From Gammaproteobacteria bacterium (GTDB taxonomy: Bacteria > Pseudomonadota > Gammaproteobacteria > Nitrosococcales > Methylophagaceae), in the NCBI GenBank assembly GCA_029248745.1, contig JAQWIT010000003.1, forward strand, positions 124,001 through 188,000: DNA of 64,000 bases. Reading direction: 5' to 3'. Of the stretch, positions 46,920-49,680 are shown piece after piece. The notes below the pieces were generated by a model. It was not told where the DNA came from and did no database searches. It saw only the letters and a list, made by a program, of their open reading frames with translations. Positions within the stretch are counted from its first letter, which is position 1. Every line of letters starts with the position of its first letter. A program made the position numbers and the translations under genes.

Positions 46920-47519
46920 TTATATTGATTCACGACCTGAAAACGCAAGAGATAGTGTACCACTGTCTACATACTCAAGCTCGCCACCAATAGGAATACC
47001 GTGAGCAAGACGCGTGATATGGATATCCTGGGCCTTGGCTAGTTGGCTGATATAGTGTGCTGTGGCTTCACCTTCAACGGTTGGGTTCGTTGCTAAAATG
47101 ACTTCTTGAATAGTCTTTTGAGCAAAGAGTTCAGTTAAAAGTGGGATACCTAATGCTTCTGGACCCACGCCATCTAGTGGTGATAAATGACCCGATAAAA
47201 CAAAGTAACGACCTTTGTAGTGCGTAGCTTGTTCAATAGATAAGACATCACTGGGCATTTCGACGATACACAACTGATCTTGACGACGTTGAGGGTCAGC
47301 ACAACGCGGACAAATAGGTGTCTCGCTGAGAATACGACACTGTTCACAGTGCTGAACTTTATCGAGAGCATGTGCTAAAGCATCTGCCAATAACTGACCA
47401 CCATCACGGTTGCGCTCTAATAAGTGGAAAACCATACGCTGAGCGGATTTAGGCCCAACGCCTGGAAGACATCGAAAAGCATCAATTAATTGATCAATAG
47501 TTGGTCCAAGACTCGCCAT
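46920..47519 (-). CDS. recR: Recombination mediator RecR
   Basis: RecR loads RecA at gaps with RecFO. The 199 residues have the N-terminal HhH ([18 protein letters not shown]), the C4 zinc finger ([16 protein letters not shown]), and the Toprim motif ([15 protein letters not shown]). It is the end of the dnaX-ybaB-recR operon. Confidence 0.97.
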
Positions 47520-47540: not shown

Positions 47541-47849
47541 CTAGAAAGGAATCTTCATACCAGGTGGCAACATACCCGACATACTATCTTGACTGGTCTT
47601 TTCAACTTGGCGAACCGCGTCATTGACTGCGGCTGCGATCAAGTCTTCCAACATGTCTTTATCATCTTCGAATAAAGCATCTTCGATACTGACGCGTTTT
47701 ACATCATGTTTACCCGTCATGACGACTTTCACCATACCACCGCCAGCTTGGCCAGTGATTTCAAGGTTAGCTAGCTCTTGCTGTGCCTTTTCCATGTTGG
47801 CTTGCATTTGCTGTGCTTGCTTCATTAAATTACCCATACCACCTTTCAT
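47541..47849 (-). CDS. ybaB: Nucleoid-associated protein YbaB/EbfC
   Basis: A 102-residue DNA-binding dimer that acts as a nucleoid-associated factor. Signature segments are [38 protein letters not shown] and the end [13 protein letters not shown]. It sits between dnaX and recR, the classic arrangement. Confidence 0.96.
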
Positions 47850-47860
47850 GTTTTTTCCTC

Positions 47861-49531
47861 TTACTTAATCGGTTTAATTGTACTTTCTATAACACGTGCA
47901 TCAAATGCGGATTTAATCGCATCGACAGTAGGGTCATTATGAATCGACGCTTTAGCTCGTTCTTGGTCAGCAACGGCATGTTCCGCACGTTCTGTTGCTA
48001 GCGTAGGAGAACTTTGGTATGTGTCTGCATCGACAAACGAAATTTTAATCGTTTGACCCAGTGATTTACTTAATCCAGTCTCCAATCGCTCTTGCGGTTT
48101 TTTACTGGCTAGATGGGCAAGTTCAGGCGCAATCGCTAATGTCACATTATTATCTTTAAAATCAACAAAAGCACTGTTATCAGCAAGTTGTCGTGCTAGT
48201 GCAGTCAATTTTAGACTATTAATAAGGTTAAGCCAATTGTCAGTAGTGATCGAAGCAGATGTCGTTGATTCAACCGCTTTTTCAGGGGCAAGCTCTACTT
48301 TAACAGTTGGTTTAGTCGGAGGTGGCTCTATTGTCGGTGTAGATTCAGCCGGTTTGTTTTTAGAGTTTACTTTAGCGGCCGTTTTTTTTTCTGTGGGTTT
48401 TGACTTTGGTGTTGGAAAAGAAGGCGTCTCAATGTGGTGAGTTACATCGGCAGGTTGAAAGTGCATCATTCTTAACAGGGTCATTTCAAAACCACTTTTT
48501 GGATCAGCTGCATAGGGCAAATCTCGTTTGCCATGTAAAGCAATTTGATAAAAGAGCTGTGTTAATTCAGGCGACAGTTGCTGGCTAAAAGAGACCAAAG
48601 TGTCAGCATCCTCTAGTTCAGTGGTATTGAGATCAGGAACGAGTTGCAAAGTAGCAATGCGTTGAAACAGGCTAAGTAAGTCATTGAGGACTTGTACAAA
48701 ATCTCGGCCTTGAACTGATAGATCTTGAGACTGTTGAATGACAGCATCGCCATTACACGAGATTAAAGCCTCGATAAGCTGGTAAAGCTGTTGTTGAGAA
48801 ATATTCCCCAACATATCGTGTATTTTAGCACTTTTCACGGTGCCAGACCCATGAGAAATGGCCTGATCAAGTAAGCTCAGTGCATCCCGCATACTTCCAT
48901 CGGCTGCTTTAGCAATAGCACTGAGTGCATCGGGTTCAAAGCCGATATCTTCAGATTTCAAAATAGTTGTTAAATGGCCTGAAATTTGGCCGATATCTAA
49001 CCGTCTTAAATTAAACTGTAAACAACGTGACAGAATCGTCACAGGCAATTTTTGAGGATCGGTAGTTGCAAATAAAAATTTGACGTGTGGTGGTGGCTCT
49101 TCCAGTGTTTTAAGTAAGGCATTAAAACTGCTTGTTGACAGCATATGCACTTCATCAATCAAATAGACTTTATAGCGACCACGACTAGGTGCATATTGCA
49201 CATTATCGAGTAACTCACGGGTATCATCGACTTTAGTGCGAGAAGCAGCATCAACCTCAATCAAATCAACAAAACGACCTGAATCAACTTCTAGGCAACT
49301 TTGACATTCACCACAGGGGGTCGAGCTGACACCTTGCTCACAGTTAAGCGATTTAGCAAAGATACGGGCCAAGGTCGTTTTACCAACGCCACGTGTGCCA
49401 GAGAAAAGAAAAGCATGGTGAAGGCGGCCTTGGTCTAAACCATTGATTAAGGCTTTAAGGACATGTTCTTGTCCGACAACGTTGGAAAAGGTGTTAGGCC
49501 GCCATTTTCGAGCGAGAACCAAATAACTCAT
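47861..49531 (-). CDS. dnaX: DNA polymerase III subunits tau/gamma DnaX
   Basis: DnaX is the clamp-loader ATPase. Walker A is [20 protein letters not shown], the zinc module is [16 protein letters not shown], Walker B region is [12 protein letters not shown], and sensor 1 is [12 protein letters not shown]. The 556-residue form is tau. Domain III ends around residue 365 and a Pro/Lys/Thr-rich linker follows. In that linker codons 381-384 (GAA AAA AAA ACG) form an A9 run at 48382-48390; both alternative frames stop within five codons. It heads the dnaX-ybaB-recR operon. Confidence 0.97.
48382..48391 (-). promoter_or_regulatory. A9 slippery run in dnaX, candidate programmed frameshift/transcript slippage site
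   Basis: The minus strand reads G followed by nine A then CGGCC. Re-reading or adding one A gives E-K-K-N-G-R then TAA, a 386-residue product; losing one A gives R-P-L-K then TAA. Either product keeps domains I-III, like gamma. Thermus thermophilus dnaX uses an A9 run for transcript slippage and E. coli uses A-AAA-AAG; here no upstream Shine-Dalgarno stimulator was seen. Confidence 0.55.
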
Positions 49532-49565: not shown

Positions 49566-49680
49566 GGTGGCGACCCGTACCAGCCAAATCTCGGCGCCCG
49601 AGTCCGAAGGCTCCGCTGCTCCCTTCCGGGCCTGACGGGTTGACCAACATATCGTCGCGAGGTAACCGGCACAGGCCACC
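49566..49680 (-). ncRNA. ffs: Signal recognition particle 4.5S RNA
   Basis: On the minus strand the universally conserved SRP domain is visible: GTCAGGCCCGGAAGGGAGCA, the GGAA tetraloop with the asymmetric loop that binds Ffh M domain. The ends pair (5' GGTGGC with 3' GCCACC) and a long hairpin can form between, giving about 115 nucleotides, the size of E. coli 4.5S RNA. It lies 35 bases upstream of dnaX on the same strand, a common location. A short frame overlapping it is not considered coding. Confidence 0.93.

Follow-up and report, generated by a model that had tools for sequence, protein, structure and literature searches.

A nine-adenine run in the dnaX linker of a gammaproteobacterium as a probable transcriptional-slippage site of the Thermus kind

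The dnaX gene of the gammaproteobacterium studied here carries nine consecutive adenines on its coding strand, which raises the question of whether the run serves to make a gamma-like clamp-loader subunit beside tau or is a neutral product of a lysine-rich linker. The window (the whole stretch of DNA analysed, 64,000 nucleotides) belongs to a 1.73-Mb genome in 20 contigs that is 99.99% complete. Its dnaX lies on the minus strand (47861-49531), where the tau reading frame encodes 556 aa and matches the DnaX N-terminal model TIGR02397 at 446 bits; the proteins of two Methylophaga sp. loci, L038 and L039, are 67% and 59% identical to it. The 4.5S SRP RNA is encoded directly upstream on the same strand (49575-49671), and a match to this RNA also stood beside dnaX at 13 of 14 loci searched, the exception being the E. 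coli locus. The open reading frames 3′ of dnaX look, from their translations, like ybaB (47541-47849) and recR (46920-47519), and the order dnaX-ybaB-recR is also annotated in E. coli.

The run reads G-A9-C in the coding sense and occupies 48382-48390 of the minus strand, within codons GAA AAA AAA ACG (E381, K382, K383 and T384). The original prediction had found the run correctly but placed its end one base too far, at 48391, which is the flanking base (C on the plus strand, G on the coding strand). Its placement in the linker after domain III was borne out by Pfam, whose boundaries at residues 361 and 420 bracket codons 381-384: the run begins about 20 residues past domain III of gamma/tau (PF12169, residues 232-361; 48449-48838, minus strand), which a short product would keep, and precedes tau domain V (PF12170, residues 420-552; 47876-48274, minus strand), which binds polymerase alpha and would be absent from it. 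Stops wait in both shifted frames, three and four codons on, as had been claimed. The TAA of the −1 frame (48372-48374, minus strand), reached from an A10 transcript or by a −1 shift, would give a protein of 386 aa ending in EKKNGR, and the TAA of the +1 frame (48367-48369, minus strand), reached from an A8 transcript, one of 387 aa ending in EKKRPLK. The predicted masses are 42.8 and 42.9 kDa against 61.0 kDa for tau, in agreement with the product of about 386 residues and 43 kDa lacking the tau C-terminus that had been foreseen. Since the reading frame continues into domain V, the run is unlikely to have gained or lost a base in assembly. The run also contains, in the correct phase for −1 ribosomal shifting, the heptamer A_AAA_AAA (48383-48389, minus strand), which the original prediction did not mention, and it is abutted on its 3′ side by a weak hairpin (CGGCCG/CGGCTG with a 24-nt loop; 48346-48381, minus strand) that is not clearly beyond chance.

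This anatomy suggests a transcriptional-slippage site of the kind known from Thermus thermophilus dnaX, and we regard that reading, covering slippage, protein and role, as somewhat favoured. RNA polymerase would realign on the nine As and produce transcripts with eight, nine, ten or other numbers of As; those in register would encode tau, and those out of register would terminate a few codons further on, giving a gamma-like subunit that consists of domains I-III and is about 386 aa long. Such a subunit could in principle join clamp loaders without binding polymerase alpha, and ribosomes on A_AAA_AAA might add a small amount of −1 shifting. That the organism makes a gamma-like product is likewise rather likely. 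In T. thermophilus, slippage on nine As is reported to give gamma from transcripts whose run is altered by non-multiples of three (PMC5009743, PMC1088944), a finding credited in both sources to Larsen et al. 2000. The two genes are alike in their single tau open reading frame, the nine As on the sense strand, close stops in both frames and a gamma predicted from A8 and A10 transcripts; they differ in that the present run is not kept in near relatives and belongs to another phylum. They differ also in tRNA-Lys, of which one was found in the window genome against two for Thermus according to a review. Enterobacterial RNA polymerase is reported to slip at runs of nine As or Ts, and on the Thermus dnaX run the slippage in E. 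coli goes in both directions (PMC6260861). According to the same source, poly(A) provokes slippage by the E. coli RNA polymerase less easily than poly(T) does, which we counted against the slippage reading of the window run.

How surprising the run is depends on the background chosen. No other run of nine or more As or Ts exists in the window, where dinucleotide shuffles average 5.2, and the whole 1.73-Mb genome has 22, a background from which about 0.002 such runs would be expected in the roughly 300-nt dnaX linker. With the protein held fixed, synonymous shuffles recreate A9 at the site in 56% of cases (the gene's lysine codons are 33 AAA and two AAG). Stops in both frames as near as those observed occur in just 8.6% of shuffles and at 42 of 400 codon positions tried within dnaX. 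Taken alone, the window site is only mildly unusual. Two further properties were considered and set aside, namely an avoidance of A9 across the window's genes as a sign of selection (0.6 runs expected in 61 predicted genes, almost wholly from the 0.56 of dnaX itself, and one observed) and a coding-sense A9 special to dnaX (by eye, about half of the genome's 19 exact A9 sites are on the sense strand of long open reading frames).

These numbers give some room to the explanation that the run is neutral, a product of a lysine-rich, AT-rich linker, with any slippage incidental and a gamma-like subunit made without selection. We consider this unlikely but a serious contender, and the relatives of the window organism also speak for it. 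Of the 59 genomes searched, the window's own included, 58 gave a match; in a family search, 53 of 57 genomes, again including its own, had DnaX at E ≤ 1e-100, and the same-genus set comprised 25 usable dnaX genes, one of them (L159) without its start. Runs of nine or more As (A9+) are present in two of the 25, the window gene and G021, and synonymous shuffles give 2.0 ± 1.0, so that there is no excess. In the window's clade (SH-aLRT 90 in a quick tree) the two nearest relatives, G012 and G003, have A7 and A6G in place of the window's A9, G018 has A7 and G016 has no run. The sole other carrier, G021, reads CAA AAA AAA ACT, and its sister G004 reads CAA AAG AAA ACT, the very kind of synonymous AAG break in a relative that the original prediction had named as counting against it. 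The run is not conserved in the window's genus; the appeal to "conservation of such a run" fails, and selection for A9 in the window's lineage is unproven.

Against the neutral explanation stands the class-wide pattern. A first sample of 147 gammaproteobacterial dnaX genes (L083, L085, L165, L177, L178 and L179 left out; region counts exclude genes lacking the anchor motif or shorter than 1400 nt) contained 14 A9+ runs, all of them within the 40 kb of linker; the N-terminal (126 kb) and C-terminal (44 kb) coding regions had none. With a close stop defined in both samples as one within five codons, ten of these runs had one in the −1 frame against 6.0 expected (p 0.015), ten in the +1 frame against 7.3 (p 0.05) and six in both against 1.8 (p 0.005). 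A second sample, drawn evenly over the class from 191 genomes with a match, consisted of 26 loci and 100 stretches; after L248, L283, L297, L322, L330 and three near-copies of first-sample loci were left out, 118 genes remained; for the 24 of them without the anchor motif, a default position served as the start of the linker. This sample yielded 11 A9+ runs, all in the linker (35 kb) and none in the remaining 165 kb, with close stops in the −1 frame for seven (3.1 expected, p 0.007), in the +1 frame for six (4.6, p 0.20) and in both for three (1.2, p 0.096). The second sample reproduces the excess of runs in the linker and that of −1 stops, and for stops in both frames it agrees in direction only; the samples have some lineages in common (L302 is near L086 and L110). 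Combined, they comprise 258 non-redundant genes, after removal of those below 1400 nt and of near-copies above 97%, with 25 A9+ runs in 24 genes where about ten are expected, and close stops for 17 runs in the −1 frame (9.1 expected), 16 in the +1 frame (11.9, p 0.019) and nine in both (3.1, p 0.0005). All of these p-values are too small because related genes were counted separately. A genome-wide background of 2,649 such runs in 359 Mb, with genome sizes rounded except for the window's own, predicts 0.134 in the 118 linkers of the second sample, where 11 were seen; part of this gap arises because the linker is lysine-rich, a composition that the synonymous shuffles fix and the genome background does not.

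The excess is confined to particular run lengths. Among the 238 genes outside a sister genus of the window's, here called g3, it falls at six and at nine to ten As, with A6 observed 50 times against 34.8 expected, A9 20 times against 8.4 ± 2.4 (reached by none of 200 synonymous shuffles) and A10 five times against 1.7, and it is missing at A7 (16 against 17.6) and A8 (six against 5.4). In the 148 genes of at least 50% GC, A6 occurs 18 times against 6.7 and A9 six times against 0.9; in the 90 genes below 50% GC, A6 is not significantly raised (32 against 28.6), A9 occurs 14 times against 7.1, and A9 and A10 together 17 times against 8.6, about half of them by chance. GC-rich dnaX genes (0.57-0.71) with A9 or A10 in the linker include L289, L335, L098 and L256; the first of these is from genome G173, in which dnaX is 71% GC and only six A9+ runs exist in 2.8 Mb, including that of the dnaX linker. 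A run of A10 is also carried by L112, the dnaX locus of Thiothrix caldifontis. The run is followed by CAC and then a −1-frame stop in L289 and L335, and also in L086, L110 and L117. A FastTree phylogeny of 247 genes, which lacks one of the 24 A9 genes, requires no fewer than 15 changes for the A9 state (23 genes) and nine for the A6G state (35 genes); some near neighbours have A9+ in common (L055, L058, L086, L110 and L302; L080 with L117; L239 with L281), and the other carriers are isolated.

The class-wide excess of A9-A10 with close stops, together with the rarity in shuffles of two stops as near as those at the window site, weighs against neutrality, and a neutral A9 would itself be expected to slip somewhat. 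Our estimate for functional slippage at the window site is a judgement, not a calculation; it is set by the chance origin of about half of the low-GC A9-A10 runs together with the two close stops at this one. What survives of the original prediction is supported by the class-wide linker and close-stop excess and not by conservation, and the mechanism it proposed is plausible and backed by these statistics.

The signals accompanying the two kinds of site differ as well. At 35 A_AAA_AAG sites, 20 of them from g3, a Shine-Dalgarno (SD)-like motif accompanies 26 against 7.3 expected, and the downstream RNA is more stable than in synonymous shuffles, with a mean z between −1.2 and −1.7 in the five windows used. 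The 15 sites from outside g3, among them that of L039 (Methylophaga), follow the same trend more weakly (SD-like motif in nine against 3.8; z −0.7 to −1.4). The 25 A9+ sites have one SD-like motif against 1.2 expected and a mean downstream z of −0.01 to −0.20, although six of them individually fall below −1.5. Thinning to less than 85% nucleotide identity left 26 and 24 sites with similar values. The structure test is informative for groups and has little power on an individual gene: even the established E. coli stem scored only −0.44. This contrast fits ribosomal frameshifting at A_AAA_AAG and Thermus-type transcriptional slippage at A9+, and the Thermus analogy drawn originally is upheld both in anatomy and in the lack of stimulators at A9+ sites as a group. 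The window gene has the A9 profile that would fit the slippage type, with both stops close, no SD-like motif found upstream and no significant structure. By this test, with its little power on one gene, and by the hairpin scores, no strong stem turned up there (z −1.87, −1.25 and −0.29 for 40, 50 and 70 nt; synonymous-shuffle z 0.1).

Production of the 386-aa protein by translation, through a −1 ribosomal frameshift at A_AAA_AAA of the E. coli dnaX kind on a weaker heptamer, is improbable. It would draw on the in-phase heptamer, the −1 stop three codons on and a single tRNA-Lys, with anticodon UUU, among the 35 tRNA genes called at 37 tRNA matches. Relatives also lend it something: G003 has A_AAA_AAG and G012 has A_AAA_AAA, with −1 stops five and two codons on, and eight of the 25 genes of the genus (2.9 expected) have a phase-2 A_AAA_AA(A/G) heptamer followed by a −1 stop no more than five codons on, a count reached by none of 300 shuffles. 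The E. coli gene resembles the window gene in its short subunit without domain V, its −1 stop right past the site and its tRNA-Lys with UUU only. However, its frameshift heptamer is A_AAA_AAG (PMC5009743), whereas the window has A_AAA_AAA inside A9, reported to be much less shift-prone in E. coli (PMC5009743), with no SD-like stimulator and only a weak hairpin. The Rfam frameshift family RF00382 did not match in the window dnaX, where two Rfam matches fell far under their cut-offs (the E. coli dnaX control scored 96.8 bits), although RF00382 misses 13 other A_AAA_AAG loci too, and the near +1-frame stop would serve no need under translational shifting. Sliding of ribosomes on the poly(A) lysine codons is highly improbable. 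E. coli ribosomes are reported to slide on homopolymeric A, with truncated product from three AAA lysines upward, but the truncation is given as robust for A11 (PMC4363877), and this run is A9 with two AAA codons.

Slippage has been proposed for other dnaX poly-A runs. Among dnaX genes split into two open reading frames, such as that of Chlorobium, 12 of 17 have a poly-A of 7-10 and slippage was suggested, but those genes depend on recoding for tau, which the window gene encodes in frame (PMC3711429). The gammaproteobacterial dnaX of Blochmannia also has a poly-A for which slippage was proposed, but as a correction of a frameshifted gene in an AT-rich endosymbiont, and the window gene is intact (PMC3017870). 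Gamma is reported to arise by proteolysis in Caulobacter (PMC5009743). The genera with dnaX entries in Recode-2 are given as Escherichia, Neisseria, Salmonella and Vibrio (PMC3711429), and truncating slippage of the Thermus dnaX type is described as hard to judge by comparative sequence (PMC1088944). A literature search turned up neither an A9 survey of the dnaX genes of Gammaproteobacteria nor a title on dnaX frameshifting in Methylophaga, which is weak evidence, as subscription papers lay mostly outside the search.

Taken more broadly, the data may mean that the short dnaX subunit of Gammaproteobacteria has two recoding modes, A9-A10 slippage and A_AAA_AAG frameshifting, gained and lost repeatedly in one linker, with the gamma-like product selected and the mechanism interchangeable; the window's clade (A9, with A7 in G012 and A6G in G003) would then be caught in the act of switching. 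We hold the evidence for this to be evenly balanced. A 2012 review states that most non-enterobacteria keep no dnaX frameshift signature and may not make gamma (PMC3290774). If A9-A10 or A_AAA_AAG does recur in one linker, a clamp-loader subunit without the polymerase-binding domain would seem worth having, and close relatives with differing mechanisms offer material for direct comparison.

The sister genus g3 carries a conserved A_AAA_AAG cassette. Of its 24 dnaX genes one is truncated, and the 23 usable ones (L137-L157, L032 and L037) all have A_AAA_AAG, where 1.1 would be expected, at codons 370-379; in 22 of them a −1 stop follows within five codons (0.6 expected). Of 20 non-redundant genes, 13 have an SD-like motif 5′ of the site (3.3 expected). 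A hairpin begins about 17 nt 3′ of the heptamer, a longer spacer than that of E. coli, whose predicted stem starts about five bases past it. The g3 hairpin was analysed in 17 of the 23 sequences, where 82% of cells pair against 68% in shuffles, double-change cells number 24 against 11.6, and the covariation score is 0.450 against 0.217 (reached by none of 500 shuffles), with much lower scores for slid versions; two further measures stayed at shuffle level (double-change pairs, five against 4.1; further pair types, ten against 10.3). RF00382 did not match in eight g3 loci or in five other A_AAA_AAG loci. A separate RF00382 search of the 57 family genomes gave nothing over the cut-off, and none of its weak listed matches (E 0.02-1) was at dnaX; this search used stricter filters, under which seven of 14 controls matched in some form and only one exceeded the cut-off. 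The g3 cassette with its distant hairpin is possibly a separate family of frameshift elements.

Linkers elsewhere in the window's family and genus are varied. In eight same-family genes (L014, L018-L022, L028 and L030) the linker has neither an A_AAA_AAR heptamer nor a run of eight or more As. Three genes of the window's own genus (L023, L024 and L026) have A_AAA_AAG at codon 360, directly past domain III (QPKKSE); the second −1-frame codon after the shift is TGA, as in E. coli, and the site lies about 70 codons earlier than there.
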